Source: Thermoleophilia bacterium
Lineage (GTDB): Bacteria; Actinomycetota; Thermoleophilia; Gaiellales; JAICJC01
DNA: 25,562 nt
Direction of reading: 5' to 3'
Assembly (NCBI GenBank): GCA_025928435.1
Contig: JAICJM010000040.1
Span: 1-25,562, forward strand
Shown here: in pieces, positions 3,354 through 18,253 of the stretch
How positions within the stretch are numbered: position 1 is the stretch's first letter
How the letters are laid out: every line of letters starts with the position of its first letter
Program-made: the position numbers and the translations under genes
The notes under the pieces: model-generated
What the model was told of the DNA's origin: nothing
Database searches by the model: none
What the model saw: only the letters and a program-made list of their open reading frames with translations

Positions 3354-3358
3354 CGCAC

Positions 3359-5113: not shown

Positions 5114-6347
5114 GGCAACTCGATCCCGAACGGCGTCGCCGCGACGCCCTCCGCGGGCGGGTGGCGCATCAGGTACTGGCTCTCCGCCGCGGCCTGGATC
5201 GCGTCGTCGCTCGTGTCGGCGAACCGGTCGACCCGGTAGGCGGAGATATCGGTGTCGGTGCGGCCGGCGGTGACCAGCTCGGCGGCGATGCGGGCGAGGC
5301 CCGGGCCGTGCGTGACGCAGCACTCGTTGCACCCCGCCAGCACGACGTAGCCGTCGATCTCCGGCGCGATCCCGAGGATGTGGCGCCCGTCCGGCGTCCA
5401 GGTGGGCAGGCCGCTCGCGCGCTCCCGCACACGCGCGGTCGCAAGCGCGGGGATGACGTCCGCGAGATCGCGGGCCAGCTCCTCGTGCTCCATCGCCGCG
5501 TGCTCGGAGAGGTCGGCGCTGCGCGGCGGGTCGGCGAGGTCGACGCGCGAGCGCGGGCCGATGGTGTGCTCGATCGCGCCGACGAGGAGGCCGCCCGCCT
5601 GCTCGCGCAGGTACAGCAGGTCGCGCTCGAAGAAGAGCATCAACGGCAGGTCGGGCCCGGCGCCGGGGATCGGCTCGGTGGTGAAGCGCGACTCGAGCAG
5701 CGGCACGGCCGCGATGTCGACGCCGTTCCGGGCGCCGATCGGGCGGGCCGCGGCGCCGGCGGCGTTCACGACCGCGCCGGCCGCGATCTCGCCCGCCGGC
5801 GTGCGCACGCCGGCCACCCGTCCCCCGGCCACGATCGCCCCCTCGGCCGCGACCCCGGTGCGGACGTCGACACCCGCCCGCTCGAGCTCGCCCGCGAGCA
5901 CGGCCATCACCCGCACGGTGTCGACGCGGTGTCCATCGGGCTGGAGCAGCGCGCCGTGGATCGCGTCGGCGGAGAGGATCGGCGCCATGTGCACGGCCTC
6001 GTCCGCGTCGATCATCGCGACGTCGGGCGCGAACCCGAGCTCGCGCTCGTACTCCTGGCGCAGCATCTCGACACCCGGCTCGGAGAGCGCCGGAAACAGG
6101 AGGCCCACGCGGCGCACGCCGGCGTCCGTCCCGGCCCTGTCGGCCAGGCCGGTGTAGAAGCGCATCCCGTACGCCGTGAGCTCCGCCTCGAGCTCGCCCG
6201 CCCAGTACCCCACGAACCCGGCCCCGGCGGCCGTCGTCTGCGTCCCCAGCGCCGGCTCCCGCTCCACCAGGACGACGTCGGCGCCGGCGTCGGCCAGGTG
6301 CAGCGCCGCCGTCGCGCCGAGGATCCCGCCGCCGATGACGACGACAT
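5110..6347 (-). CDS. FAD-dependent oxidoreductase (DAO / sarcosine oxidase-like), start codon disrupted
   Basis: The open frame encodes about 411 aa. It starts with the FAD-binding Rossmann motif VVVIGGGILGATAALHLADA and the following VVLVEREPALG, has FERDLLYLREQAGGLLVGAI in the middle, and ends with the second FAD contact (YVVLAGCNECCVTHGPGLARI). DAO-family flavoenzymes oxidise amines, amino acids or hydroxy acids and release H2O2 or pass on electrons. No ATG, GTG, TTG or CTG exists in frame between the upstream in-frame TGA (about 6409-6411) and the Rossmann motif. The natural ATG (6347, in TGATG with the SMP-30 stop) is one base out of frame; one extra G after it would give MVVVIGGG. The first in-frame GTG (6267) would lose the FAD motif. 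The gene is therefore probably real but carries a one-base deletion or sequence error, or starts unconventionally. Confidence 0.75.
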
Positions 6348-7180
6348 CAGCGATCGGGCAGCTCCGGCCGCTCGAGGGCGGCCCCGCGGACGCCCGGGTC
6401 GATCGCCTTCACCGCCCAGCCGCACAGCGACGCCAGCACGAGCACGTCGAGGTCCTCGCCGGCGAACGCGAGGTTGGTCGGCGTCATCACGTACTCCCCG
6501 GTCCAGTCGTCGACGACGAGGCGGAGCTCGCCGTCGGGCGCGAGGCGGTAGATGTGGTTCGGCTGGTAGCAGCCGATCCAGAGGCCGCCCTCGGCGTCGA
6601 ACGCCAGCCCGTCGGGGACGGTGCGCGGCAGCTCGACGACCGGCTCGAAGTCGCCGCCCGCGAGCGGCCTCCGCACCACGCCCGGCATCTGCGACTCGAC
6701 CATGTAGAGGTGGTCGCCGCCGATGGCGAGCCCGTTCGCGAACCGGAACGGCCCCGAGACCCGCTCGGTGGAGCCGCCGGGCGCGATCCGCACCAGGCCG
6801 CCCGAGACCTCGTCCCAGGTGCCGGAGTCGGTCACCCACAGGTTGCCGTCGCGATCGAAGACCGGGTAGTTGGGGTAGCCGACCCGGTCGCCGTAGGGCT
6901 CGATGCCGCCGTCCGGCGTGATCCGCAGCACGTGGCCGGCGTTCGGGTCGCAGGCGTAGATGTTGCCGGCGGCGTCGAGGGCGAGGCCGAGCAGGAAGCC
7001 GCCGGGCACGGACGCGATGGTCTCGACCGGCCCGCCGTCCAGGCCGAAGCGGTAGAGCTGGCCCGCCTCGCCGCCCGCGTAGACGGCGCCGGCGGGGGAC
7101 CAGCACACGCCCTCCGGGTGATCGAGGCCGTTCGCGAGCGTCCGAAGACCCCTGCCCACGACTGGTGCTTGATCGTTCAA
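6347..7180 (-). CDS. SMP-30/gluconolactonase-family lactonase
   Basis: 277 aa from TTG 7180 (MNDQAPVVGRGL). The TTG lies inside the 12-bp operator; the alternative is GTG 7159, which also lacks a Shine-Dalgarno. The six-bladed propeller is visible as repeated blocks: HPEGVCWSPAGAVYAGGEAG, GLALDAAGNIYACDPNAG, PVFDRDGNLWVTDSGTWDE, FANGLAIGGDHLYMVES, PDGLAFDAEGGLWIGCYQ. Metal-ligand candidates are the E of HPEG, the N of FANGLAI and the D of VPDGLAFD. Members hydrolyse aldonolactones with a divalent cation. It is the first gene of a four-gene operon (lactonase, FAD oxidoreductase, IlvD-type dehydratase, VOC), so lactone opening just before dehydration is the likely role. A -35/-10 pair ends 8 nt before the TTG, so the mRNA is probably leaderless. 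Confidence 0.88.
   Translation of the reverse strand: MNDQAPVVGRGLRTLANGLDHPEGVCWSPAGAVYAGGEAGQLYRFGLDGGPVETIASVPGGFLLGLALDAAGNIYACDPNAGHVLRITPDGGIEPYGDRVGYPNYPVFDRDGNLWVTDSGTWDEVSGGLVRIAPGGSTERVSGPFRFANGLAIGGDHLYMVESQMPGVVRRPLAGGDFEPVVELPRTVPDGLAFDAEGGLWIGCYQPNHIYRLAPDGELRLVVDDWTGEYVMTPTNLAFAGEDLDVLVLASLCGWAVKAIDPGVRGAALERPELPDR
7169..7180 (-). promoter_or_regulatory. LacI-type operator, site 1 (TTGAACGATCAA)
   Basis: Exact copy of the 12-bp motif, read as TTGAACGATCAA in the direction of the SMP-30 operon. It starts 8 nt after the -10 box and includes the TTG start codon, so a bound repressor would cover +1. The half sites TTGA/TCAA flank a CG-containing centre, as is common for LacI-family operators. 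Assignment to the LacI protein at 9022-10062 is inference. Confidence 0.75.
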
Positions 7181-7188
7181 GGGGGACG

Positions 7189-7218
7189 ACGTTACCGGAC
7201 GTCCTCCGGCCTCGTCAA
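7189..7218 (-). promoter_or_regulatory. Promoter of the SMP-30 operon
   Basis: On the minus strand, -35 TTGACG (7218-7213) and -10 TAACGT (7194-7189) are separated by 18 bp. The predicted start of transcription is at or one base before TTG 7180, giving a leaderless message. The same geometry recurs at 17478-17506 and 17524-17552. Confidence 0.6.
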
Positions 7219-7236
7219 TTGCCGGGGTCGCCCGCC

Positions 7237-8220
7237 TCACGGTGCCACCGATCCGTCCGCCCCCAGCCGCGACACCGACTCGACGCCCTCGTAGACGACC
7301 GCGCAGACCGACGTCTCGACCACGCCGCCCGGATCGAGCACGCGGGCGCGGCCGGCCTCGACGGCCTCGGCGAGCGGGCTGGGGTAGCCCGTCCACGGCT
7401 CGCAGATCGCGTGGTAGTAGCCGCGCCAGCCGCCGTACACCATCCACAGCCACACGACCGGGAAGACCTCGCGGTCGAAGGTGAGGCCGAAACCGCGCCG
7501 CGCGGCCGTGTCGGTGGTCGCGACCCAGCCCTCGCGCAGCTCGGTCAGGTAGTGGAGCGCGAAGCAGCCCGCGCCCGGCCCCAGCGCCCGGCGCACGTCG
7601 AGCCCGTCGAAGTCCGGCCAGGCGTAGCGGTCGCCCTTCACCCCGAGCGTGCCGCCGCCGTTCTCGTCCACCTCCGCCTGCGCCGCCGGCACGTCGAAGC
7701 GGTGCGCCGGCGAGATGGCCGCGACCGGGTGCAGGCCCCAGTTGTAGTCGAACGGCATCGTGCCGGCGTTCTCGAGCCGGTAGTCGATGCGCAGCACCGG
7801 CTCGTCGCCGTCGAGCACGAGCCGGCGCGTCCAGCGGGCGGGCGTGATCGGGGTCTGCAGGACGAGCTCGACTTCGCACGCGTCCGGCCCGTCGCGGACG
7901 ACGCGGTGCTCGGCCTTCGTCGTCCAGAGCTCGCCCATGTAGGGCAGCATGTCGCCGTAGCGGTTGGGCGACGGGGCGCCACCGGGGAAGGCCTCGTCCC
8001 ATCCGCCGGGCCAGTGGTCGTCGAAGTTCGCGTGCAGCTCGGCCCGGTGCGGCTCCACCCGGGGCGAGTGCCACAGGAGGTCGCGGTCGCCGCGCTTGTC
8101 GACCAGGCGCAGGATCTTCCCGCCCAGCTCCGGCACGACGTCGACCGCCAGGCGCGCGTTCTCGAGCCGGATCACGCGCAGGCCGTTGTAGGCCCAGCGG
8201 TCGTCGACGCGGGCGCCCAT
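7237..8220 (-). CDS. Galactose-mutarotase-like (aldose 1-epimerase superfamily) protein
   Basis: 327 aa from ATG 8220, which overlaps the SDR stop as TGATG. The protein is beta-rich with an N-terminal block LENARLAVDVVPELGGKI followed by DLLWHSPR and WPGGWDEAFPGG, and a central DYRLENAGTMPFDYNWGLHP. These resemble the supersandwich fold of aldose epimerases and related carbohydrate-binding proteins (NVVPELGG.I and the H..LG.HP region). The likely role is interconversion of sugar anomers, supplying the anomer used by the sugar dehydrogenase encoded just upstream. It belongs to the lacI-SDR-mutarotase operon. A purely carbohydrate-binding role cannot be excluded, since the assignment to a catalytic subfamily is uncertain. 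Confidence 0.7.
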   Translation of the reverse strand: MGARVDDRWAYNGLRVIRLENARLAVDVVPELGGKILRLVDKRGDRDLLWHSPRVEPHRAELHANFDDHWPGGWDEAFPGGAPSPNRYGDMLPYMGELWTTKAEHRVVRDGPDACEVELVLQTPITPARWTRRLVLDGDEPVLRIDYRLENAGTMPFDYNWGLHPVAAISPAHRFDVPAAQAEVDENGGGTLGVKGDRYAWPDFDGLDVRRALGPGAGCFALHYLTELREGWVATTDTAARRGFGLTFDREVFPVVWLWMVYGGWRGYYHAICEPWTGYPSPLAEAVEAGRARVLDPGGVVETSVCAVVYEGVESVSRLGADGSVAP

Positions 8221-8990
8221 CAGTAGCACGTGGCCAGCAGGCCACCGTCGACGACGAGCGGCTGGCCGCTCATGAACGATGCGTCCTCGCCCGCGAGGAA
8301 CACGACCGCGCGGGCGATCTCGCGCGGCGCGGCGATCCGCTCGAGCGGGTACTCGGCGCTCACCTCAGCCCGCAGCGCGGCCGGGTCCTCGGCGGTGTCG
8401 AAGTAGGCCTGGACGAGCGGCGTGTCGATGTCGCCGGGGCAGACCGCGTTGCAGCGGATGCCGTCGCGGCCGTACTGGACTGCGGTCGCCCGGGTGATCC
8501 CGAGCACCCCGCCCTTGGCGGCGCAGTACGCGGCCAGGATGCCGTCGCCGACGAGCCCGAGGATGGACGCGATGTTGACGATGGCGCCGCCGCCGGCGGG
8601 GCGCATCGCGCGGACGGCGTGCTTGCAGCCGAAGAAGACGCCCTTCAGGTTCACCCCCAGGATGCGGTCGAGCTGCTCCTCGGTGGTCTCGGCCAGCTCC
8701 TGCTCGATCTGGACGGCCGCGTTGTTCACCATCACGTGCAGGCGGCCGTGGCGCGCGACCGCGGCGGCGATCAGCGCCTCCACCTCGGCCTCGCGCGAGA
8801 CGTCGGCGTGGAGGTAGGTGCCGATGCCGTCCATCGTGGCCTCGCCCGCGGAGTCGTTCACGTCGCAGCCGACCACGAGCGCGCCCTCGAAGGCGAACTC
8901 GCGCGCGATCGCCTGGCCGAGGCCGGAGCCCACGCCCGTGACGACCGCGCATCGCCCTTCGAGCGACCGCCGTATCTGCTCAGTTGCCAT
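8220..8990 (-). CDS. SDR-family NAD-dependent dehydrogenase (copy A)
   Basis: 256 aa, classical SDR length. The cofactor motif TGVGSGLG is at residues 18-25, D42 at the end of strand 2 favours NAD+ over NADP+, NNAA is at 88-91, and the catalytic residues are S141, Y154 and K158 (YCAAK). It starts at ATG 8990 with GAGGAGG 9 nt upstream. It sits 31 nt after lacI and overlaps the mutarotase-like gene. It is clearly paralogous to the SDR at 10136-10906: both are 256 aa and share GRDGIRCN, CPG-x-ID and related blocks. Probable role: oxidation of a sugar to its lactone or of a sugar acid, by context. Confidence 0.88.
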   Translation of the reverse strand: MATEQIRRSLEGRCAVVTGVGSGLGQAIAREFAFEGALVVGCDVNDSAGEATMDGIGTYLHADVSREAEVEALIAAAVARHGRLHVMVNNAAVQIEQELAETTEEQLDRILGVNLKGVFFGCKHAVRAMRPAGGGAIVNIASILGLVGDGILAAYCAAKGGVLGITRATAVQYGRDGIRCNAVCPGDIDTPLVQAYFDTAEDPAALRAEVSAEYPLERIAAPREIARAVVFLAGEDASFMSGQPLVVDGGLLATCY

Positions 8991-9021
8991 GCGCCTCGAC
9001 CTCCTCGGGGATGCTCATGCG

Positions 9022-10062
9022 TCAGGCCGAGCCGCGCAGGCGCAGCTCGACGGGAAGGGTCACCTGCGGCTGCGCGTCCGCCTCGCCGTCGAGGTGCTCG
9101 ATCAGGAGCTGCGCGGCCGTCCGGCCGATCTCGTAGCCGGGCACGTGCACCGTCGTCAGCGGCGGCTCGACGAACTCGGCGAACGCGAAGTCGTTGAACC
9201 CGGTCACCGCCAGGTCGTCCGGCACCCGCAGGCCGCGCGCGCGGGCCTGGCGCATGACGCCGATCGCGAGCAGGTCGTTGCCGCCCATGACCGCGGTCGG
9301 CGGCTCGGGCAGGTTGAGCAGCCGGTCGACCATCGTCCCGGCGTCGGCCGCGTCCCAGATGCCCTCGAAGAGCTCGAAGTCGGGGTTTCGCTCGAGGCCG
9401 GCGGCGGAGAGCGCCTCGCAGTAGCCGAGGTGGCGCTGCTCGACCATCGGCCACGGCTGGCGGGCGGCGATGAATGCGATGCGGGTGTGGCCGGCGGCGA
9501 TCAGGTGGTCGGCCAGGCGGCGGGCGCCGTCGCGGTTGTCGGCCGTGACCGACATGTGCGCGCCGTCCTCGGGGCCGGCCTCCTCGAGCACGACCGTGGG
9601 CACCCCGAGCTCGGCCGCCCGGGCGGGGTACCAGCGCCGCTGCTCCGGCGGGCCGGACAGGAAGAGCAGCACGCCGTCGACCCGCGACTCGAGCACCGGC
9701 CGCAGCAGCCCGCGGTCGGGCGGGCCGGGCAGGCCGGCATGGATCAGCACGCTGTAGCCACGGTCGCGGGCGACGTCGCCGACGCCGGCGATCACCTGGT
9801 CGGTCATCGGATCGGCCAGGTAGCGAGCGCCCTCGTCGAGCAGCAGGAACCCGATCGTCGTCGTGCGCGCGGAGCGCAGGCTGCGGGCGGTCAGGTTGGG
9901 GTGGTAGCCGAGCTGCTCCATCGCGCCCTCGATCCGCAGGCGCGTCTCATCGGACATCTGCCGCAGGCGGTTGTTCACGAGGTTGGAGACCGTCTGGGCG
10001 GACACGCCCGCGTGCTCGGCGACGTCGCGCATGGTCGGGCGTTTGCCGGACGTGCTCCTCAC
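9022..10062 (-). CDS. LacI-family transcriptional regulator, likely local repressor
   Basis: 346 aa from GTG 10062. The N-terminal helix-turn-helix is PTMRDVAEHAGVSAQTVSNL (about residues 9-28), followed by the hinge region (GYHPNLTARSLRSARTTTIGF). The rest is a periplasmic-binding-protein-like sensor domain with typical blocks GVLLFLSGP, HTRIAFIAA, TAVMGGNDLLAIGVM and DLAVTGFND. LacI regulators bind short palindromes and are usually released by a sugar or sugar-acid ligand. A TAAAGT -10 box (10076-10071) lies 8 nt before the GTG, so the gene is probably leaderless. A degenerate copy of the shared operator lies immediately upstream (10078-10089), consistent with autoregulation. An ATG at 10032 would remove the residues before the HTH and is less likely. 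Confidence 0.92.
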   Translation of the reverse strand: MRSTSGKRPTMRDVAEHAGVSAQTVSNLVNNRLRQMSDETRLRIEGAMEQLGYHPNLTARSLRSARTTTIGFLLLDEGARYLADPMTDQVIAGVGDVARDRGYSVLIHAGLPGPPDRGLLRPVLESRVDGVLLFLSGPPEQRRWYPARAAELGVPTVVLEEAGPEDGAHMSVTADNRDGARRLADHLIAAGHTRIAFIAARQPWPMVEQRHLGYCEALSAAGLERNPDFELFEGIWDAADAGTMVDRLLNLPEPPTAVMGGNDLLAIGVMRQARARGLRVPDDLAVTGFNDFAFAEFVEPPLTTVHVPGYEIGRTAAQLLIEHLDGEADAQPQVTLPVELRLRGSA

Positions 10063-10070
10063 GGTTGGCC

Positions 10071-10076
10071 ACTTTA
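10071..10076 (-). promoter_or_regulatory. Candidate -10 box of lacI
   Basis: TAAAGT on the minus strand, 8 nt before GTG 10062; the spacing suggests a leaderless message. No good -35 is found at 16-18 bp; the degenerate operator lies just upstream of this box. Confidence 0.4.
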
Positions 10077-10077
10077 C

Positions 10078-10089
10078 TTGATCGTGAAA
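10078..10089. promoter_or_regulatory. Degenerate LacI-type operator, site 2 (TTGATCGTGAAA)
   Basis: Matches ten of twelve positions of TTGATCGTTCAA, with the left half intact. It is also preceded by TTTAC exactly as at site 3 (11838). It lies between the divergent lacI and SDR copy B genes and could give weak autoregulation of both units. Confidence 0.5.
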
Positions 10090-10135
10090 GTGACGGAGTA
10101 TTCGCCCCGAAGAGAACCCGACGGAGGGAGCGATC

Positions 10136-10906
10136 GTGCGGATGGAAGGCAAGGTCAGCGTGGTCACCGGGGCGGGGACCGGGATCGGCCGGGCGGTCGC
10201 GCAGCGGTTCGCGGCCGAGGGGGCGCTCACCCTGTGCGCCGACATCGACGGCGACGCCGCCGAGGCGACGGCCGAGGCGATCGCCGCCGCCGGTGGCCGG
10301 GCCGAGGGGCACCGCTGTGACGTGTCCGACGCCGGACAGGTCGAGGCGGTGATGGCCGCCGCCGAGCGCCACGGCGGGCCGCACGCGATCGTGTCCAACG
10401 CGGCCATCCAGTACGAGCGCACGCTCGAGGACACGCCGCCGGACGACTGGGACAGGGTGCTCGGCGTGAACCTGCGCGGCGTCTACCTGTGCGCACGGGC
10501 GGCCATCCCCCGCATGCGCAAGCTGGGCGGCGGCTCGATCGTGAACATGGCCTCGGTGAACGGATTCTGGGTCGAGCCGGCCCTGGCCGCGTACTGCACC
10601 GCGAAGGGCGGCGTCATCAACCTGACCCGGGCGATCGCGCTGGAGAACGGCCGTGACGGCATCCGCTGCAACTGCATCTGCCCCGGCTACATCGACACCG
10701 GCATGGCCCAGCGCTACTTCGAAATCCAGGACGACCCGGCCGCCGCCCGCGAGGAGGCGGGCCGTCTGCATGCGCTCGGACGCATCGGGCAGCCGGAGGA
10801 GGTGGCGGCGATGGCCCTCTTCCTGGCGTCGGACGAGGCCGGGTTCTGCACGGCGGGCGCCTTCGTCGTCGACGGCGGCCTGAGCGCGGGAGTGCCGACG
10901 ACCTAG
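10136..10906 (+). CDS. SDR-family NAD-dependent dehydrogenase (copy B)
   Basis: 256 aa from GTG 10136, preceded by GGAGGG at 7-nt spacing; ATG 10142 is an alternative two codons in. The cofactor motif TGAGTGIG is at residues 11-18 and D36 favours NAD+. The catalytic residues are S140, Y153 and K157 (YCTAK). The usual NNAG/NNAA motif reads SNAA (87-90), a mild variation. It is divergent from lacI and paralogous to copy A. The two may oxidise different intermediates of one pathway, such as the free sugar and a keto-deoxy acid. The stop TAG (10904-10906) overlaps that of the convergent gene. Confidence 0.88.
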   Translation: MRMEGKVSVVTGAGTGIGRAVAQRFAAEGALTLCADIDGDAAEATAEAIAAAGGRAEGHRCDVSDAGQVEAVMAAAERHGGPHAIVSNAAIQYERTLEDTPPDDWDRVLGVNLRGVYLCARAAIPRMRKLGGGSIVNMASVNGFWVEPALAAYCTAKGGVINLTRAIALENGRDGIRCNCICPGYIDTGMAQRYFEIQDDPAAAREEAGRLHALGRIGQPEEVAAMALFLASDEAGFCTAGAFVVDGGLSAGVPTT

Positions 10907-11814
10907 ACCAGCTCGGGAGCCAGGTCGCGCAGGAGCCGCTCGGCCAGCGCGGCCCGGCGCACCTTCTCGCGCGCCTGCGAGACGGCGACGTCCTCGAGGT
11001 GGCCGCCGGTCGGGTAGACCGACCTCGCGTTGCGCAGCCCGAATTTCAGGTGCACAGGCGCGGCGGCGCGGACGATCTCGGGCACGTCGTAGGTGCGGAC
11101 GAAGCCGCCCAGGTCGTCGGGCGCCTCGATGTAGAGGTCGAGCGGGAGCTCGGTCACCCGCCGCATCGCCGCCAGCATGCCCACGCCGAGGTCGGTGGCG
11201 ACGTTGATCGTGTCGGCGCCGATCCGGTCGTAGAGCGAGGCGGTGGCCGGGTTGGCGGCGCACATGACCGCCGACGTCTTGAAGCGCAGGTCGGACGGGA
11301 GGTCGCCCGCCGCCCGCAGCCGCGCGAGGACGTCCAGGACGCCGATGTCGCCGACAAGCAGGCTGCGGATCCCGTGCGCGCAGGCGCGGTCGGCCTCCGC
11401 GAGGCAGGCCTCGACCGCCTCCGGCCCACGGGCGACGCCCGCGGCGGCCTCGTTCACGAGCGCCTGGCCGCCCGGATCCCAGCTCCCGCGCGGCCCCAGG
11501 AACAGGCACACCTCGACGTCGCGTTCACGCCCGATCGCGGCCATATCGTCGAGCTCGGCGTCCGAGAGCATCATCACGCCCGAGCCCTGGGAGACGCGGT
11601 GGATGCGCACGCCCTGGGCGTCGGCCTCCTCGAGCACGCCGCGCAGGACGACCGGGCCCTCCACGCTCGCGATCTCGAAGTGGCGGCGGTCGCCGTCCGG
11701 GAAGCGCCCTTCCGACTCGGGCCAGGGGCGCGCCGGCGGCTCCAGCCCCACCGCCGCAAGCATCTTCGCGAGGCGCCCGCGGGGGCCGTCTGGGACGTCG
11801 GTCGGGCTGGGCAC
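10903..11814 (-). CDS. Uncharacterised probable TIM-barrel protein (U32-peptidase-like)
   Basis: 303 aa from GTG 11814. Alternating strand and helix segments suggest a barrel: EVCLFLGPRGSWD, IRSLLVGDIGVLDVLARLR, LRFKTSAVMCAANPATASLY, ADTINVATDLGVGMLAAMRR, LDLYIEAPDDLGGFVRTYDV and PVHLKFGLRNARSVYPTGG. The pattern recalls U32-type and related (alpha/beta)8 proteins, but no catalytic motif can be assigned. The GTG lies 6 nt after a TAGACT -10 box whose -35 (TTGAAC) is part of operator site 3, so the mRNA is probably leaderless and controlled with the rest of the locus. It may be a lyase, aldolase or ligand-binding enzyme of the pathway; this is guesswork. Confidence 0.75.
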   Translation of the reverse strand: MPSPTDVPDGPRGRLAKMLAAVGLEPPARPWPESEGRFPDGDRRHFEIASVEGPVVLRGVLEEADAQGVRIHRVSQGSGVMMLSDAELDDMAAIGRERDVEVCLFLGPRGSWDPGGQALVNEAAAGVARGPEAVEACLAEADRACAHGIRSLLVGDIGVLDVLARLRAAGDLPSDLRFKTSAVMCAANPATASLYDRIGADTINVATDLGVGMLAAMRRVTELPLDLYIEAPDDLGGFVRTYDVPEIVRAAAPVHLKFGLRNARSVYPTGGHLEDVAVSQAREKVRRAALAERLLRDLAPELV

Positions 11815-11824
11815 CGGGCCAGTC

Positions 11825-11830
11825 TAGTGT
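11825..11830 (+). promoter_or_regulatory. Candidate -10 box for the MBL-DgoD operon
   Basis: TAGTGT, 7 nt before operator site 3, overlaps the opposing -10 (TAGACT on the other strand) by two bases. No clear -35 exists 16-18 bp upstream. The predicted mRNA leader would be about 12 nt and consist of the operator. Confidence 0.35.
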
Positions 11831-11837
11831 GGTTTAC

Positions 11838-11849
11838 TTGATCGTTCAA
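11838..11849. promoter_or_regulatory. LacI-type operator, site 3 (TTGATCGTTCAA)
   Basis: Exact copy in the short divergent interval. Its last A is the A of ATG 11849 of the MBL gene, and its other end supplies the -35 of the opposing gene. One bound repressor could therefore control both directions. Confidence 0.75.
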
Positions 11850-12808
11850 TGTCCCTGACCGAGATCGCCGCGGGCACCTGGCGCTTCGAGTCCCTCGTCG
11901 GCCCCCGCAACATGTTCCAGTACCTGATCGCCGACGGCGACGAGGCGATCCTGGTCGACACCGGGACGACGGCGACGCCCCGCGACGTGATGGTGCCGGG
12001 CATGCGCAGCGCCGGGGTCGGCCCGGGCGCCGTGACGATGGTCGTCGTCACCCATCCCGACCTCGACCACCAGGGCGGGCTCGCGGGCCTGCGCGAGGTG
12101 CTCCCGAACGCCGTCGGCGCCTGCGGGTTCGCCGACCGGATGATGGTCGCCGAGCCCGAGCGGCTCCTGACCGACCGCTACGGGGCGTTCGAGGTCGAGC
12201 ACGACGTCGGCTACCCCGAGGCCGAGAAGGCGTGGATGCGTGAGAACTACGGCGCGCCCGCGACCGTCGAAGTGGGCCTCGCGGGCGGAGAGACGATCCG
12301 GGTCGGCGACCGCCGCCTGACCGCGCTGCACGCCCCCGGGCACTCGGCGGGCCACCTCGTGCTGCACGAGCCCGCGACCGGGATGCTGTTCAGCTCGGAC
12401 GCAGTCCATTGGCGCATGTGCCCGGCCGCCGACGGCTCCCCCGCTCTCGCACCGACGTACGAGGAGGTCGACGACTACCTCGAGACGATCGCCATGCTCG
12501 AGTCGCTCGCGACGAGCGAGCTGCACTCGGGCCACTGGCCGATCCGTTCCGGTTCCGAGATCGCCGACTTCATGGCCGAGAGCCGCGCGTTCGTCGAGCG
12601 GGTGGACTCGGCGCTCCAGGAGCGGCTGGAACGGCCGGCCACGCTGGCCGAGCTGTGCGCGCACGCCGACGAGCGCCTCGGCCCGTTCGGCTCGGACGCG
12701 ATCAACCTGATGTTCGTCGTCCACGGCCACGTGCGGCGGATGCTGCGGGCCGGGGCGGCCGAGATCGTGACCGCGGGCGAGCGGCCGCCGAGGTACCGCC
12801 GGCCGTGA
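11849..12808 (+). CDS. Metallo-beta-lactamase-fold hydrolase
   Basis: 319 aa from ATG 11849. The MBL signature is THPDLDHQGG (H69, D71, D73, H74): the usual second His of HxHxDH is Asp here. The other metal positions are APGHSAGH, FSSDAVHW and HSGHWPI. An all-helical C-terminal domain (about residues 235-310) follows, similar to the winged-helix region of many MBL hydrolases. Hydrolysis of an ester, lactone or thioester is likely; with a DgoD-like dehydratase overlapping it (GTGA), a lactonase role feeding that dehydratase is plausible but inferred. No Shine-Dalgarno precedes the ATG, which touches the operator. Confidence 0.85.
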   Translation: MSLTEIAAGTWRFESLVGPRNMFQYLIADGDEAILVDTGTTATPRDVMVPGMRSAGVGPGAVTMVVVTHPDLDHQGGLAGLREVLPNAVGACGFADRMMVAEPERLLTDRYGAFEVEHDVGYPEAEKAWMRENYGAPATVEVGLAGGETIRVGDRRLTALHAPGHSAGHLVLHEPATGMLFSSDAVHWRMCPAADGSPALAPTYEEVDDYLETIAMLESLATSELHSGHWPIRSGSEIADFMAESRAFVERVDSALQERLERPATLAELCAHADERLGPFGSDAINLMFVVHGHVRRMLRAGAAEIVTAGERPPRYRRP

Positions 12809-13968
12809 AGATCACCGCGCTCGACACGGTCGTCGTGAACGCCGAGATGCGCAACTGGGTGTTCGTGAAGGTCTCGACCGACGAGGGCATCGTCGGCTGG
12901 GGCGAGGCGACCGTGGAGTGGAAGACCCGCGCGGTCGTCGGCGGCATCGAGGACTACCGCACGCTGCTGGTCGGCGAGGATCCGCGCCGGATCGAGCACA
13001 TCTGGCAGATGATGTACCGGCAGCACTTCTTCCGCCCCGGGATGGTCGAGTGCTCGGCGATGAGCGGGATCGAGCACGCCTGCTGGGACATCACCGGCAA
13101 GGCGCTCGGCGTGCCGGTCTACCAGCTGCTCGGCGGCGCCGTCCGCGACACCGTGCGGCTGTACGACCACCTGGGCGGCGGGGAGATGCACTCGGTCTAC
13201 CACGCGCTCACGCCCGAGCAGGCGCGCGAGCGGACGCGCGAGTCGCTCGAGCTCGGGTTCGACGCGATCAAGCTCGAGGTGGTCATCCCCCGCACCGGCC
13301 GCCTGGACGGGGCGGCCGCGCTGCGGCACGCAGACGCGGTCATGGCCGCCGTGCGCGACGAGGCCGGCGACGACGTCGAGCTCATGGTCGACATGCACGG
13401 GCGCTGCTCGCCGATGATGGCGGCCCAGTACTTCACCGTGCTCGAGCCGTACCGGCCCTGGTTCTTCGAGGAGCCCTGCCCGCCCGAGCACCCGCAGGCG
13501 ATGGCCGAGCTGGCGCGGCGCACGACCGTGCCGATCGCGACCGGCGAGCGGCTGTGCACGCGATACCCGTTCGCGCACCTGCTCGAGATCGGCGCCTGCT
13601 CGGTGCTCCAGCCCGACGCCGTGCACTGCGGCGGAATCTCCGAGCTGCGCCGGATCGCCGCGATCGGCGAGACGTACCACGCGGCCCTCGCGCCCCACTC
13701 CTCGACCGGCCCGATCGGCCATGCAGCCTCGATGCACGTCGCCTTCGCGACGCCGAACTTCATCATCCAGGAGACGTGGCGGGCCGACGTCCCGTGGCGG
13801 TTCGAGGTGCTCTCGAAGACGCTGCCGTTCGAGGGCGGCACCGCCGAGCTCCCGACCGAGCCCGGCCTGGGCGTCGAGGTGGACGAGCGCGAGGCGGCCA
13901 AGCACCCGTTCCAGCAGGAGCCGCTGATGCGCTACTTCCACGACGACGGCTCGGTCGCCGACTGGTAA
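12805..13968 (+). CDS. Enolase-superfamily sugar-acid dehydratase (D-galactonate dehydratase-like)
   Basis: 387 aa from GTG 12805, which overlaps the MBL stop as GTGA. The three metal ligands are spaced as in the mandelate racemase/DgoD group: D196 (VDMHGR), E222 (FFEEP) and E248 (ATGERL). H198 in DMHGR and H298 in APHSSTGP match the acid/base histidines of galactonate/mannonate-type dehydratases. The N-terminal capping domain includes GIVGWGEATVE and a WDITGKALGVPVYQLLGG block. Expected reaction: Mg2+-dependent dehydration of an aldonate to a 2-keto-3-deoxy acid. It is the second, unrelated dehydratase family in the regulon, after the IlvD type. The exact stereochemistry of the substrate cannot be read. 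Confidence 0.88.
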   Translation: MKITALDTVVVNAEMRNWVFVKVSTDEGIVGWGEATVEWKTRAVVGGIEDYRTLLVGEDPRRIEHIWQMMYRQHFFRPGMVECSAMSGIEHACWDITGKALGVPVYQLLGGAVRDTVRLYDHLGGGEMHSVYHALTPEQARERTRESLELGFDAIKLEVVIPRTGRLDGAAALRHADAVMAAVRDEAGDDVELMVDMHGRCSPMMAAQYFTVLEPYRPWFFEEPCPPEHPQAMAELARRTTVPIATGERLCTRYPFAHLLEIGACSVLQPDAVHCGGISELRRIAAIGETYHAALAPHSSTGPIGHAASMHVAFATPNFIIQETWRADVPWRFEVLSKTLPFEGGTAELPTEPGLGVEVDEREAAKHPFQQEPLMRYFHDDGSVADW

Positions 13969-13977
13969 CCACCGAAT

Positions 13978-14009
13978 GGGGACAGTCCCCGCACGCGGGG
14001 ACTGTCCCC
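13978..14009. repeat. Perfect 14-bp hairpin, REP-like
   Basis: GGGGACAGTCCCCG, then a CACG loop, then CGGGGACTGTCCCC. Each arm is itself nearly palindromic. It lies 9 nt after the DgoD-like stop in a gene-free 179-nt stretch. No T-run follows, so it is less like an intrinsic terminator than a dispersed repetitive palindrome, although it may still stabilise or end the transcript. Confidence 0.65.
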
Positions 14010-14054
14010 GCTTGTGCCTCAGCCGCTGGGGACGGATGCCGGACGCGTTTCGCC

Positions 14055-14088
14055 TGGCGCTTCTGCGCCACAACCGGGGTCAGACCCG
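14055..14088. repeat. Second REP-like segment with small hairpins
   Basis: TGGCGC-TTCT-GCGCCA (14055-14070) is a 6-bp hairpin, followed by CGGGGTCAGACCCG (14075-14088), a near-palindrome related to the GGGGTCTGACCCC at 18234-18246. The remainder of 13969-14147 shows no gene. Confidence 0.45.
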
Positions 14089-14147
14089 AACGCCGTAGCG
14101 CTTGCCGGACCGGTGCCTGGCCCCGCGTGTCGCCGTGCACATCCAGA

Positions 14148-14732
14148 TCAGCCGAACGGGTGGCCGCGCCAGGGCGTCACGCTGATCCGGTCGACATACG
14201 TGCCGACCGAGTCGGAGATGCCACCGTCGGCGAGCTCGATCCGCGTGCTCGTGCGGATCGCGCGCACCTTGAACGCGTACATCTTCCAGTCGGTGTTCTT
14301 GAGCCCGCGGCCGTCGGCACTGATCCGGCCGACCACGAGCTTGCGCCAGCGGACGATCAGCAGGTTCTCGGCTGCGGACGTGCCGGGCCGGGGTGAGAAG
14401 TAGAGCTGGAGCCGGTAGAGGCGGCCGGGCCGGGTCCGCACCTTCTGCCAGATCCCGCTGGATGCGTCGGAGTCGAGCTCCACGAACTGGCGGCCGGCGA
14501 ACGGGTCGCCCGCCGCGTGGTTCTGGATCTCGATATCCGGGCCGAAGGCGAGGTGCCAGGCGGGGATCGCGGGAAACGGGTGCGTCGTGCCGGCCGGGAT
14601 CCGCGGGCGCTCGAAGCCGCCGTTCACCACCGCGTTCGGCAGCTTGGGCGGGTCGGCGGTCGCGCTCGCCGGGGCGAGGATGAGGGCCGCGACCGCGAGG
14701 GCAGCGCCGAGCATCGGACCGACACGAGCCAC
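14148..14732 (-). CDS. Secreted DUF642-like / carbohydrate-binding-type protein
   Basis: 194 aa from GTG 14732. A signal peptide is clear: a short basic start (MARVGP), hydrophobic core (MLGAALAVAALILAP) and a cleavage site near ASATA-DPP, residues 22-27. The mature part begins NAVVNGGFERP, has IPAWHLAFGPDIEIQNH and QFVELDSDASSGIWQKV, and ends with TYVDRISVTPW. These are hallmarks of the DUF642/galactose-binding-like beta-sandwich (NGGFE, IPGW, VELDS.....Q). It probably binds polysaccharide outside the cell; no catalytic residues are evident. It lies 42 nt after the metallophosphoesterase on the same strand, so it may be the distal gene of the transporter operon. Confidence 0.7.
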   Translation of the reverse strand: MARVGPMLGAALAVAALILAPASATADPPKLPNAVVNGGFERPRIPAGTTHPFPAIPAWHLAFGPDIEIQNHAAGDPFAGRQFVELDSDASSGIWQKVRTRPGRLYRLQLYFSPRPGTSAAENLLIVRWRKLVVGRISADGRGLKNTDWKMYAFKVRAIRTSTRIELADGGISDSVGTYVDRISVTPWRGHPFG

Positions 14733-14774
14733 GTCTCTACACCGGCGCGGGGGCCGCGGGCGTTACAAGGATGT

Positions 14775-15761
14775 TCACCCGGTCACGAACTGGTGCTGGG
14801 CCTGGTCGCCGCGCAGGGTGACCAGACAGCCGGAGATGCGGCCCGTGTGGTAGTCGCTGCCGGGGTTCACGCACAGCGTGCGGCCGATCCGGTTCATCCC
14901 GGCCGACTCGTGGATGTGGCCGTGCAGCGCCGCCATCGGCTGGAACTCCTCGATCGCGCGCCGCACACCCGTGGAGCCGACCGGGATCATGTGCGGCTCC
15001 TTGCCGATCAGCACCATGTTGAAGTCGTCGTCGAGCTCGGCGGCCGTGTCGAGCCGTGAGTCGAACGGCGGGACGTGCAGGTTGAAGACGCACCGGCTCA
15101 TGTCGGGCACCTTCCCGGCCAGCCCGGCGATGCGCGCATAGAGGTCGTCCTCGTCGAGCTCCCTGGGCGAGTCCCACGGGGTGCGGTTCGAGTAGCCGAG
15201 CGAGAGCATCGAGTAGCCGTCGAACTCGACCACCGCCTCGTCGCAGCTCTCGACGTTCCGGCCCTTGCGGATCGAATCCTCGACCCGCGGCGGGTCGTCG
15301 TTCCCCGGCATGACGAAGCAACGGATGCCGGTGCCATCGAGTCGCTCGTCGGCGAGCGCGATCCAGTCGTCGAAGGTCTGCAGCATGACCGACTCGAACC
15401 ACTCCTCCCGCTCGGCCTCGGGCAGCCCGGAGATGCGGGCCACCTCCTCGGCGGTCGTGCGGTACGGGTACATCCCGTTGCCGCGGATGCGGCGCTCGAT
15501 GGCCTCGAGCTCGGCCTCGGTCGTCGCCCGCTGAGTCCCGCCGAAGAGCTGGGCCGCCCAACCCTGGTCGTCCTCCACGACCGGGATCACCACCTTCCCG
15601 GTGATGTCGCCTCCCATGACGAGCACCCGCGCCTTGTAGTACCTGGGCGCGTTCAGGAACTTTTTCCACAGCACCTCGGTGCCGTGGATGTCGGAGGCGT
15701 AGTAGAGGCGGAGGGCGGCATCATCGCCGCCCTCCGCCTGCTTGCGCCGCAGAAACCCCAC
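14775..15761 (-). CDS. Calcineurin-like metallophosphoesterase
   Basis: 328 aa from GTG 15761. All metallophosphoesterase motifs are visible in order: YASDIHGT (D24, H26), VMGGDITG (D52), MPGNDDPP, FNLHVPP, LHGHIHES and NPGSDYHTG. The bimetal-centre enzyme hydrolyses phosphomono- or diesters. The start is only 4 nt after the permease stop, so the two are co-transcribed from the operator-controlled promoter at 17478-17506. A large insert between motifs 2 and 3 (about residues 60-165) is more extensive than in small phosphodiesterases. Why a phosphoesterase is tied to an APC permease is unclear; it could dephosphorylate a pathway intermediate or a signalling nucleotide. Confidence 0.88.
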   Translation of the reverse strand: MGFLRRKQAEGGDDAALRLYYASDIHGTEVLWKKFLNAPRYYKARVLVMGGDITGKVVIPVVEDDQGWAAQLFGGTQRATTEAELEAIERRIRGNGMYPYRTTAEEVARISGLPEAEREEWFESVMLQTFDDWIALADERLDGTGIRCFVMPGNDDPPRVEDSIRKGRNVESCDEAVVEFDGYSMLSLGYSNRTPWDSPRELDEDDLYARIAGLAGKVPDMSRCVFNLHVPPFDSRLDTAAELDDDFNMVLIGKEPHMIPVGSTGVRRAIEEFQPMAALHGHIHESAGMNRIGRTLCVNPGSDYHTGRISGCLVTLRGDQAQHQFVTG

Positions 15762-15765
15762 GCGC

Positions 15766-17433
15766 TTATTCCGGTGGGATCTCGAGGTAGTTGAGGGACA
15801 GGTCGATGCCCTGCGACGCGCGCCACGCCTTGCCGGCGTAGTAGATGAGCGCGCCGACGATCAGGTCGGCAACCACGAGGGCGAGGCCGCCGCGGAACGG
15901 GCTCGTGAAGAGCTGGGCCGCGAGGCTGTCACCCGCGCGCGGCAGTCCCAGCGTCGGGTAGGCGAACCACAGCCACCCGCCGAACAGCCCCGCGATGATC
16001 GAGCCGATGCCGAAGTAGACGAGCAGCGGCAGCCCGAGGAACGAGATGTTCGACACGGACGCCTCGTATGCGGCCCGGCGCCGGTAGGGGAACAGGATCG
16101 CCGAGATCCCGACCAGCACGAACGTCGGGAAGCCGACGATCGTCGAGAGGGCCACGACCTTCAGGAAGTTGGCCGAGTAGGCGGCCATGTAGAGGAACGG
16201 GATCGAGCACACCGTGATCAGCGAGAGCGTGAACACCGGCGTGTGCGTCCGCTCGTTGATGGACGCGATCTGCTCCGGGATCACCTGATCGAACGACCAG
16301 GCGAAGAGCGCCCGCACGGGCTGCACGATCTGGATGTACACGATCAGCGGCGCCCAGGCGACGAACGTGATGCCGAGGAACGCCACGAACACGGTGTTCG
16401 TGTGGATCGCCGCCACGAGCGTGATCCACCACGGCGAGTTCGGCAGCGTGTAGACCGTCGGGTCGGCGGACACGCCGTTCACGGCCGTGAGGAACGTCTG
16501 GCCGACGGTGTGGTACAGCAGCGCCACCATGATCAGGATCGGCAGGAACGTGCAGACGAGGCCGCCGAGCATCGAGTACCAGTTGTTGCGGGTGCCCGCC
16601 TGGCGGATCTCGCCGGCAAGGTTGGTCGAGAACCACACCCACACGCCGAAGGCGATGAATGCGCCGGAGGCGACGATCGTGTTGTGCCAGTCGGTGCCGC
16701 TCGACAGGTTCACGCCCGAGCTCTGGGCCTTCTGGATGAAGAAGTGGTACGTGTCGGCCTTGTGCGTGAACGGCCGCGCGTAGTCGTTGTACGAGCTGAT
16801 GAAGCTCGAGCGCGACGTCGTCAGGAGCGTGATCGCCGCGGCGATGAACCCGATGCTCCCGAGCGCGAACAGCCACAGCTGGATCCGCATCATCAGGCGC
16901 ATGCCGTACGCCATGATGAGCGCGAGCAGGGCGATCTCGATCAGGCCGACGCCCATGCTCCAGCCCTTCGACGTGACCGTCGTCCCCCAGCTCTGCAGGG
17001 TCGACGAGTCGGAGGCGACGCCGACCATCGTCAGCATCGGGCCGATGCAGATCTTGGCCGTGAAGACGCCCCAGTACCCCATCGCGATCATCGACGAGGT
17101 GCCGATGAGGATGCTCGACCCGACCGCCAGGGCCGGGTGCAGCGATCGCGAGATCAGGATGTAGTCCGCCCCCGAGCGGGGCATGATCTGGGACAGCAGT
17201 CCGAACGCGCCCGAGATCAGGAACGAGCACACCGCGGTGATGAGGATCGCGACATACACGTTCACCTCGGCGAACGAGGACAGCACCCAGAACACCGAAA
17301 CGGCCATGACAAGGCCGGGACATGCCGGAAGAACGTTGAAGATGACGGCATCCCGCACCTTCACGTCGCGCACGAATCCTGTCGCGCGGCGAGCGAAGTG
17401 CGTCTGGGTTCCCGCCATTTGCTCGCTAGCCAT
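15766..17433 (-). CDS. APC-superfamily permease
   Basis: 555 aa with about twelve membrane segments. The N-terminal block VIFNVLPACPGLVMAVS and ISGAFGLLSQIMPRSGADYI match transmembrane helices 1-2 of amino acid-polyamine-organocation transporters (the usual 'P.sGg.Y' reads P-R-S-G-A-D-Y). VWVWFSTNLAGEIRQAGTRN is the helix 6 and following loop. The family imports amino acids, amines or other organic ions by proton or sodium coupling or by exchange. It is the only importer in the catabolic locus and carries an operator copy at its promoter, so it probably takes up the inducing substrate. Start ATG 17433 is 13 nt after a GGGGAGGG; see the short upstream ORF at 17426-17440. Confidence 0.88.
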   Translation of the reverse strand: MASEQMAGTQTHFARRATGFVRDVKVRDAVIFNVLPACPGLVMAVSVFWVLSSFAEVNVYVAILITAVCSFLISGAFGLLSQIMPRSGADYILISRSLHPALAVGSSILIGTSSMIAMGYWGVFTAKICIGPMLTMVGVASDSSTLQSWGTTVTSKGWSMGVGLIEIALLALIMAYGMRLMMRIQLWLFALGSIGFIAAAITLLTTSRSSFISSYNDYARPFTHKADTYHFFIQKAQSSGVNLSSGTDWHNTIVASGAFIAFGVWVWFSTNLAGEIRQAGTRNNWYSMLGGLVCTFLPILIMVALLYHTVGQTFLTAVNGVSADPTVYTLPNSPWWITLVAAIHTNTVFVAFLGITFVAWAPLIVYIQIVQPVRALFAWSFDQVIPEQIASINERTHTPVFTLSLITVCSIPFLYMAAYSANFLKVVALSTIVGFPTFVLVGISAILFPYRRRAAYEASVSNISFLGLPLLVYFGIGSIIAGLFGGWLWFAYPTLGLPRAGDSLAAQLFTSPFRGGLALVVADLIVGALIYYAGKAWRASQGIDLSLNYLEIPPE

Positions 17434-17440
17434 ACGCCAT
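17426..17440 (-). other. Four-codon upstream ORF overlapping the permease start
   Basis: ATG GCG TAT GGC TAG. A strong GGGGAGGG (17454-17447) is 6 nt before this ATG but 13 nt before the permease ATG, which lies inside the mini-ORF in another frame. Ribosomes may start here and re-initiate, or the real spacing is simply loose. Confidence 0.3.
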
Positions 17441-17457
17441 CACCGACCCTCCCCGGG

Positions 17458-17469
17458 TTGATCGTTCAA
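17458..17469 (-). promoter_or_regulatory. LacI-type operator, site 4 (TTGAACGATCAA)
   Basis: Exact copy, oriented TTGAACGATCAA in the direction of the permease gene, 8 nt after the -10 box. It would occupy the first bases of a leader of about 36 nt. Confidence 0.75.
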
Positions 17470-17477
17470 GCGGCGCT

Positions 17478-17506
17478 AGTCTTGCGCGTCGCCGTGGGCG
17501 TGTCAA
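17478..17506 (-). promoter_or_regulatory. Promoter of the permease-metallophosphoesterase operon
   Basis: Minus strand -35 TTGACA (17506-17501, full consensus) and -10 AAGACT (17483-17478) with a 17-bp spacer, followed 8 nt later by the operator. Confidence 0.65.
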
Positions 17507-17523
17507 GCGGCCCTCCGGCCGGT

Positions 17524-17552
17524 TTGACCGGGCCCCGGCCGCTGGTTAGACT
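17524..17552 (+). promoter_or_regulatory. Promoter of the RraA-family gene
   Basis: -35 TTGACC (17524-17529) and -10 TAGACT (17547-17552) with a 17-bp spacer. The predicted transcription start is 0-3 nt before TTG 17562. It is back-to-back with the permease promoter without overlap. Confidence 0.65.
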
Positions 17553-17561
17553 CGCCTCGCC

Positions 17562-17573
17562 TTGAACGATCAA
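17562..17573 (+). promoter_or_regulatory. LacI-type operator, site 5 (TTGAACGATCAA)
   Basis: Exact copy containing the TTG start codon of the RraA-family gene, 9 nt after its -10 box. The arrangement mirrors site 1, and the encoded first four residues (M-N-D-Q) are the same. Confidence 0.75.
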
Positions 17574-18227
17574 CCCGACCGCGACGCGCTGCTCCAGCGG
17601 CTCGACCGCCTCTACCCCGCGGTCGTCGCGGACTGCCTCGACAAGGTCGGCATCCGGGCCAATGTGATGGATCCGCGCATCCGGCCGCTCTACCCGGAGG
17701 CGCGCATGTCGGGCTTCGCCTCGACCGTGCACGCCGTCCAGGTGGACGCCCCGCCGGCGAACCGCGACGACTACTACCGCGGCGAGCTGCAGGCGGTCGA
17801 TGCGCTGCGGCCCGGCGACATCATGATCGTCTCGACCGTCCGCGGCTCCTACTGGGGCGAGCTGCTCGCGACCGCCTCCCGCTACCGCGGCGCCCGCGGC
17901 ATCGTGGTCGACGGCTGGACGCGGGACACGCTCCAGCTCATGGAGATGCGGTTCCCCACGTTCGTCGCCGGCATCAACGCCCACGACTCGCTGGGCCGCA
18001 TCGATGTCGACGCGGTCGGCGGGCCGATCGAGTGCGGCGGCGTGCACGTCGAGCAGGGTGACCTCGTGCTGGCCGACTTCGACGGCGTCGTCGTCGTGCC
18101 GAGTGCCGTCGCCGAGGAAGTGATCACGCTCTCCGAGGAGAAGGTCTCCGGCGAGAATCTCGTGCGCTCGAAGCTGGCGGAGGGCATGCCCGTGTGGGAC
18201 GCCTTCCGCACCTACGGCGTGATCTGA
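17562..18227 (+). CDS. RraA / HMG-CHA aldolase-family protein, candidate keto-acid aldolase
   Basis: 221 aa from TTG 17562 (MNDQPDRDALLQRL). The active-site pattern of class II pyruvate aldolases of the RraA fold is present: GEL at 99-101 and R121-D122 in DGWTRD, about 20 residues apart. Residues 176-190 (ADFDGVVVVPSAVAEEV) match the conserved C-terminal block. Family members with these residues cleave 4-hydroxy-4-methyl-2-oxoglutarate or related 2-keto acids to pyruvate; others (RraA proper) inhibit RNase E. In this locus the aldolase role is favoured, as the cleavage step after the dehydratases. No Shine-Dalgarno precedes TTG, consistent with a leaderless message. Confidence 0.85.
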   Translation: MNDQPDRDALLQRLDRLYPAVVADCLDKVGIRANVMDPRIRPLYPEARMSGFASTVHAVQVDAPPANRDDYYRGELQAVDALRPGDIMIVSTVRGSYWGELLATASRYRGARGIVVDGWTRDTLQLMEMRFPTFVAGINAHDSLGRIDVDAVGGPIECGGVHVEQGDLVLADFDGVVVVPSAVAEEVITLSEEKVSGENLVRSKLAEGMPVWDAFRTYGVI

Positions 18228-18253
18228 ATAAAAGGGGTCTGACCCCGTTTATT
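18227..18253. repeat. REP-like palindrome between convergent genes
   Basis: An imperfect palindrome: AATAAA, then GGGGTCTGACCCC, then TTTATT. It overlaps the last base of the TGA stop (18225-18227) of the RraA-family gene and the first base of the opposing TGA (18253-18255). The A/T arms give a U-run on either strand, so it may act as a two-way terminator. The core is related to CGGGGTCAGACCCG at 14075-14088. Confidence 0.6.

Follow-up and report, generated by a model that had tools for sequence, protein, structure and literature searches.

We analyzed a 25,562-nucleotide (nt) contig from a bacterium of the order Gaiellales, class Thermoleophilia (JAICJM010000040.1 of assembly GCA_025928435.1; below, the window), and found a 12-bp motif, TTGATCGTTCAA, repeated at the gene starts of a catabolic cluster that also encodes a LacI-family protein. 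The sequence patterns suggest that the motif is the operator core of this protein, encoded at 9022-10032, which would repress the cluster until an inducer releases it; we consider this very probable (roughly 0.92). A LacI dimer would bind sites resembling TACTTGAnCGnTCAAGTA over the transcription start of its promoters or, in the case of a TIM-barrel gene, over the –35 region. Binding at five promoters, and more weakly at that of lacI itself, would block RNA polymerase; release by the inducer, probably a sugar acid or an intermediate, would switch about 14 genes of one catabolic cluster together.

Sites in the Window

The motif or its reverse complement occurs exactly at four places, and a fifth site at the lacI promoter, TTGATCGTGAAA, matches it at 10 of 12 positions. 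An earlier note on this DNA had listed these five sites, and a renewed search of the window returned all of them at the same coordinates. G199 in the list below is a genome nearly duplicating the window.

7169..7180, minus strand: predicted operator of the unit of SMP-30, FAD-dependent oxidoreductase (DAO), IlvD and VOC genes; exact match, the same in G199
10078..10089, minus strand: weak predicted operator between lacI and a divergent SDR gene (SDR2); 10/12 match
11838..11849, plus strand: common predicted operator of the divergent TIM-barrel gene (minus strand) and the metallo-beta-lactamase-fold (MBL)/DgoD unit (plus strand); exact match, conserved in G199
17458..17469, minus strand: predicted operator of the permease/metallophosphoesterase unit, upstream of the start codon; exact match, conserved in G199
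17562..17573, plus strand: predicted operator of the RraA gene, holding its likely TTG start codon; exact match, conserved in G199

The note's view that such a repeat is not expected by chance is borne out by the counts. With at most two mismatches allowed, the window holds nine matches (each exact site scoring on both strands), against a mean of 0.23 and a maximum of 2 in 100 dinucleotide shuffles, and base composition alone predicts about 0.0001 exact copies; the GC content of the window is 72.6%. All five stand at 5′ ends, either of a single gene or of two divergent genes, in agreement with the claim that the sites mark the starts of transcription units. The description as a palindrome held in part: the motif is even and has a central CG, but it is imperfect, as the bases flanking the CG do not pair (T-CG-T in all four exact window sites).

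Read on the minus strand, the 7169 site is TTGAACGATCAA and possibly also forms the first four codons of the SMP-30 gene. The 11838 site overlaps the MBL gene by one base, its last, which is the A of the ATG. The weak site keeps one half, CGATCAAG, intact and has the other degraded; its counterparts at the lacI promoter are TTTGACGATCAA in G199 and TTTATCGATCAA in a more distant genome, G003, and its autoregulatory role is putative. G003 also carries the motif ahead of its permease and RraA genes. A distance of 104 bp, about 9.9 helical turns, separates the permease and RraA sites in the window and in G199.

Gene order suggests a regulon of probably six or seven promoters or units and about 14 genes, with cotranscription presumed; the earlier proposal of a regulon spanning several units is thus supported, with its count of about 15 genes lowered slightly. 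SDR2 and the unit of lacI, SDR and epimerase genes are included through the weak site alone. A profile built from 17 aligned sites (see below) scored the five window sites, all part of its training set, at 25 bits or more and gave nothing else in the window above 10.4 bits; no further site was thus found before the unit of RidA, M20, epimerase and UxuA genes or before the gene SDR3.

Co-occurrence of Motif and Regulator

Our survey of the class used 399 genomes, sampled evenly out of a larger group; G003 lies outside this sample and was reached by another scan. A protein search (E up to 1e-80) found LacI in eight of the 399, with identities of 97, 62, 60, 56, 52, 52, 51, and 45%. The exact motif was present in 14 genomes: four copies in G199 (LacI 97%), two each in G001 (62%) and G002 (60%), and single copies in 11 more. 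The three genomes with at least two copies coincide with those having LacI at 60% identity or higher (Fisher p ~1e-7, kinship between genomes ignored), so that sites and regulator co-occur across genomes. The motif written backward, used as a control, gave at least one match, in G210. Adding the order of G199 (129 genomes) yielded no further LacI, and the order of G003 (232 genomes) yielded six, at 51 to 58%.

A genome scan with an alignment of 43 LacI sequences returned seven loci, and the whole genomes of five were searched for the exact motif, the other two being left out. There were two copies each in G001, G002, and G003 and none in G004 and G005. The LacI of G003 is 57 to 58% identical to that of the window. 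In G199 the four exact copies are all that its 4.1-Mb total contains, and they lie within 13.4 kb around lacI. Scattered copies had been named as what would speak against the proposal; instead, in the relatives G199, G001, G002, and G003, where this was checked, every exact copy, including all six in the last three, is on the lacI contig and at most 18 kb from lacI. Multicopy presence of the motif tracks that of LacI, and the reading of it as a LacI operator gains support.

The four G199 sites occupy the same places as those of the window, and the two share their gene order between the Ppx and LPG synthase-like genes, except that G199 has an AAA-ATPase/TPR/cyclase-like gene, on some 3.4 kb that separate its epimerase gene from SMP-30 (L056:19614 to L057:3090), a segment absent from the window. 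At one mismatch, G199 has a single additional copy in 4.1 Mb, on a different contig (C34:39449, TTGATCGGTCAA) and flanked by genes for a zinc peptidase and a DAO; such one-mismatch copies number one to several in other genomes, and we therefore regard this one as chance. Another candidate in G199, scoring 15.6 bits (L056:3914), was dismissed, the corresponding place in the window having nothing above 6 bits.

In G001 and G002, one operator-like site precedes a gene for a YeiH-like membrane protein (PF03601, scanned in G001) directly upstream of lacI; the G001 copy of this gene is open (L058:7317-8741), and the G002 copy changes reading frame (L061:3227-4290). The second site (L059:4895, L060:8654) stands before an SdhB/SdhA-like pair that neighbors an iclR gene and a gene whose product is related to the TIM-barrel protein (44 to 47% identity).

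The single copies in 11 of the 399 genomes could point to a chance repeat or to debris of a mobile element: a tblastn search with the window proteins of about 3 kb around each left 10 of them without any match and gave one weak match (SMP-30, 26%, L051) and no LacI. In the cluster itself, however, the flanks differ between sites, and the sites are at gene starts and conserved across species. With copies restricted to lacI loci in the relatives and a variant likewise clustered around lacI in G202 (below), we rejected chance or debris as an explanation and give it a negligible probability.

Relaxed searches extended the survey to more distant relatives. In G202 (LacI 51%), TTGAACGTTCAA is matched with at most one mismatch at four places in 6.4 Mb, and all four fall in one 20.5-kb stretch (4,737,683 to 4,758,184) that includes lacI at 4,741,984; the backward control gave one place in this genome. 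Three of the four are close ahead of genes: RraA, a pair of sugar-isomerase-like and oxidoreductase genes, and a phosphotransferase-family gene. The RraA gene of G202 is directly preceded by two operator-like sites 25 bp apart (L063:9751-9787). In G402 one such place lies 52 bp before lacI.

Several observations weigh against LacI as the binding protein. No exact copy is found in the five of the 399 genomes whose LacI is 45 to 56% identical, nor in the whole set of relatives in this range (G373, G260, G402, G298, G004, G202, and the Actinomadura genome G005), and G005 has ten scattered one-mismatch copies. Two of the three TTGAACGTTCAA-like places in G402 and the only one in G298 are off the lacI contig, and a genome search found none in G373, G260, or G004. 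When a 14-bp consensus was sought at 10 of 12 positions, G373 had no site in the 20 kb covered, G260 had one 8 kb away, G004 had none on its 5.5-kb lacI contig, and G298 had a poor one 340 bp past lacI; G298 also has a one-mismatch TTGAACGATAAA 3.7 kb from lacI. The pattern TTGANCGNTCAA, with free bases beside the CG, also has sites away from the cluster, one in G199 and three in G003; none of these is T-CG-T centered, while the ten sites within the clusters of G199, G001, G002, and G003 all are. The site of lacI itself matches the motif at only 10 of 12 positions. Finally, no good –10 hexamer accompanies the sdhB sites, one in G001 and one in G002, and both adjoin an iclR gene. LacI relatives at 45 to 56% identity in other genomes are thus mostly without clear sites by sequence search, and the missing sites near the lacI genes of G373, G260, and G004 suggest that the operator has drifted or that the targets differ. 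Away from its lacI contig, G004 also carries a pair of one-mismatch motif copies spaced by 13 bp (C476:2092-2116).

The LacI Protein

The earlier note had placed a lacI gene inside the locus, and a protein with both domains of the family is indeed encoded there.

9022..10032, minus strand: LacI-family regulator, 336 residues from the conserved Met (PF00356 and PF13377)

It has an N-terminal helix-turn-helix (PF00356), a ligand-binding domain (PF13377), and a hinge leucine (Leu52), as expected of a LacI-family repressor. In this family the hinge leucine pries open the central CG step of the operator. The recognition helix reads VSAQTVSN, and Q13-T14-V15-S16-N17 and L52-R53 are invariant in the 43 aligned sequences, the window LacI included. 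Two relatives, 86 and 90% identical, are assigned to Gaiellales. Against the NCBIfam equivalogs CytR, RbsR, PurR, and GntR, the protein aligns over nearly its full length and shares their fold, but it scores below every cutoff (best, CytR, 190.5 versus 436 bits); being so far under the curated cutoffs, it is none of the four. The half-site of the PurR operator differs from the window motif. A PDB search found no close relative with a solved structure; the best LacI-family entry, 5ysz (E-value 1.8e-42), matches over the full length, with the hinge leucine aligned to its Leu.

The sites could instead be operators of another transcription factor encoded elsewhere, for example of the IclR or GntR type, with lacI a bystander. 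Both G001 and G002 do have an iclR gene adjoining one of their two sites, and the correlation with lacI is by itself compatible with a coinherited regulator. However, the scanned window genes gave no DNA-binding regulator besides lacI and the VapB antitoxin, which is distant from the sites; the drifted variant in G202 still clusters around lacI; a degraded site stands at the promoter of lacI itself in the window, G199, and G003; and an even palindrome centered on CG is the LacI-family form in the part of a comparative survey of the family that we draw on (Ravcheev et al. 2014, PMC4052901). We regard such a regulator as very unlikely and retain LacI as the candidate binding protein.

Operator Anatomy and Promoter Geometry

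We aligned 17 sites from five genomes, 14 of them exact and three from lacI promoters. One half, CGATCAA, is invariant, and the alignment extends the palindrome from a strict core of 12 bp to 18 bp, TACTTGAnCGnTCAAGTA, each site matching 11 to 15 of its 16 fixed positions. The even palindrome with a central CG is that of a LacI-family regulon. The bases beside the CG are asymmetric in all 14 exact sites (A-CG-A as aligned); the lacI-promoter sites retain the CGATCAAGTA half and have lost the other, and the weak lacI site of G003 has the center T-CG-A.

A –10-like hexamer scoring at least 5 precedes the motif by 4 to 9 nt at 15 of the 17 sites (10 of 12 without G199), compared with 8.3% of random positions; at a score of at least 6, the numbers are 8 of 17 and 1.1%. 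The score is an ad hoc measure, with cutoffs picked after the sites were seen. With this spacing, a bound repressor would cover the transcription start (+1). The layouts are –35 TTGACG, 18 nt, –10 TAACGT, 8 nt, motif for SMP-30; TTGACA-17-AAGACT-8-motif for the permease; and TTGACC-17-TAGACT-9-motif for RraA. No good –35 was found at the MBL and window lacI promoters. The 11838 site serves two promoters, lying at +1 of MBL while its TTGAAC is 17 nt from the TAGACT of the TIM-barrel gene. A generic promoter scan found the RraA promoter alone, both hexamers of which are conserved in G199.

17524..17552, plus strand: predicted RraA promoter, TTGACC-17-TAGACT (one found by the promoter scan, shuffle mean 0.5)

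The placement at the –35 region rather than +1 of the TIM-barrel gene would suit a LacI that binds but whose effect at some sites is activation or dual regulation, and the covered part of the family survey predicts a dual role for some members (PckR; PMC4052901). Wherever else a promoter has a recognizable –10, though, the site is at the expected +1, where a bound protein would block initiation. An activating role thus appears unlikely, and repression by LacI remains our preferred reading for these promoters.

Overlap of Operator and Start Codon

Five codons upstream of the motif's TTG, the RraA frame of both the window and G199 is closed by a TAG, and the 25 codons that follow contain no further ATG, GTG, or TTG, which makes this TTG the likely start. 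The SMP-30 gene is less clear: in addition to the motif's TTG, its frame offers two GTG codons, one 21 nt further downstream and one ahead of the –10. Among the best 120 of 1513 RraA relatives, 45 have N-D-Q within the first 24 residues (38 of these among the best 60): 28 start with LNDQ, 11 with MNDQ, and six hold LNDQ inside a longer start. Another three have NDK, and 72 have neither. Between NDQ and the next conserved stretch, the 45 show 34 distinct linkers.

Because TTG AAC GAT CAA can be taken as the opening codons of both SMP-30 and RraA, the motif might be conserved as protein sequence (Met-Asn-Asp-Gln N termini) and not as a DNA site. The permease and MBL motifs, however, precede the coding sequence; a Shine–Dalgarno-like sequence and a later start come after the RraA motif of G003; and L/M-N-D-Q is kept before variable linkers in the RraA relatives, a pattern that fits selection on the DNA, with relatives compared as proteins only. 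As the upstream sites do not fit, we rejected a coding signature as a general explanation; its probability is minimal.

An operator core for LacI may nevertheless do double duty. For RraA, and perhaps SMP-30, operator and start codon are possibly fused, so that one 12-bp element would set transcription control and translation start across many Gaiellales, a tentative proposal to which we give slightly less than even odds. The transcript would begin at the operator or no more than one or two bases from it, and a leaderless or nearly leaderless mRNA would start at the operator's TTG (UUG AAC GAU CAA). If true, this double duty and a preference for one half-site would each account for part of the conservation of the asymmetric center, and the overlap would be a compact combination of transcriptional and translational signals.

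Genes of the Cluster

The enzyme families point to a likely sugar-acid character of the cluster.

2889..3365, minus strand: VOC/glyoxalase-fold protein, last in the SMP-30 unit (PF00903)
3359..5056, minus strand: IlvD/EDD-type dehydratase, start approximate (PF00920; NF004784 above cutoff)
5110..6354, minus strand: FAD-dependent oxidoreductase (DAO), probable ATC start (PF01266)
6347..7180, minus strand: SMP-30/gluconolactonase-like protein, start codon uncertain (PF08450)
7237..8229, minus strand: aldose-epimerase-like (DUF4432) protein, presumed lacI unit (PF14486, 32.7 versus cutoff 32.5 bits)
8220..8990, minus strand: SDR oxidoreductase, presumed lacI unit (PF13561)
10136..10906, plus strand: SDR oxidoreductase (SDR2) divergent from lacI, control by the weak site uncertain (PF13561)
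10903..11814, minus strand: TIM-barrel protein, aldolase/U32-like fold (AlphaFold model, Foldseek)
11849..12808, plus strand: metallo-beta-lactamase-fold (MBL) hydrolase (PF00753)
12805..13968, plus strand: galactonate dehydratase-like enzyme of the enolase superfamily (PF13378; NF010624 above cutoff)
14775..15761, minus strand: metallophosphoesterase-like protein, second in the permease unit (PF14582 and PF12850, both below cutoffs)
15766..17433, minus strand: amino-acid-permease-like (APC-type) transporter (PF00324)
17562..18227, plus strand: RraA-like aldolase (PF03737)
18234..18246, strand not assigned: terminator-like hairpin between RraA and the convergent UxuA unit (terminator scan, both strands)

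The DAO frame has no ATG, GTG, or TTG before its Rossmann motif, and the only plausible start noticed is probably an ATC (Ile-Ala-Asp-Val-Val...) at 6352-6354 on the minus strand, beside the SMP-30 stop. The DAO gene of G199 has an identical ATC, and the Pfam score of the window protein rises from 139 to 183 bits once most of the N terminus is included (5110-6345). The AlphaFold model of the TIM-barrel protein, built with 34 sequences, has a mean pLDDT of 83.7, and its best Foldseek matches are class II aldolases and one U32 protein at TM scores of about 0.4 to 0.5. On these results the fold assignment is right, but it is a generic aldolase/U32-like barrel that indicates no substrate. The metallophosphoesterase-like gene follows the permease gene in G199 and G003 as well. 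Past RraA lies the convergent unit with UxuA-like, epimerase, M20, and RidA genes; the region holds four terminator-like sites, compared with a shuffle mean of 1.5.

A VapBC-type toxin–antitoxin pair adjoins the cluster (1592-2386). VapB, VapC, and a choice-of-anchor protein have no match in the G199 stretch at E 1e-10 and 40% coverage.

Relation to Known LacI-Family Regulons

The system is a LacI-family local regulon of the usual kind, in a little-studied group. In the covered part of the survey by Ravcheev et al. 2014 (PMC4052901), 1173 of 1303 LacI-family regulators have even palindromes centered on CG, sites of 16 to 22 nt with a CG center are the rule, and 72% of the regulators are autoregulated. 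The local regulons of sugar catabolism described there resemble the present one in combining a LacI-type helix-turn-helix with a periplasmic-binding-protein domain, in their CG-centered even palindrome, in a regulator inside the target cluster with probable autoregulation, and in controlling a handful of operons. The main departure concerns position: more than 75% of the surveyed sites are 30 to 140 bp before the start codon and less than 1% in coding sequence, whereas several window sites touch or overlap the start codon. The surveyed set comprises seven actinobacterial groups, and Thermoleophilia do not appear in the portion covered.

Literature searches with the motif strings gave no paper on bacterial regulation, and those for Gaiellales with LacI and for Thermoleophilia with regulon gave no regulon paper, as judged by titles; a further search led to papers on the IclR and MerR families. 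Gaiellales and Thermoleophilia are common soil actinobacteria. For them, the analysis provides a testable operator, a regulator, and a target list, and it ties obscure genes, those of the MBL hydrolase, the metallophosphoesterase-like protein, the TIM-barrel protein, and the APC-type permease, to one likely sugar-acid cluster.

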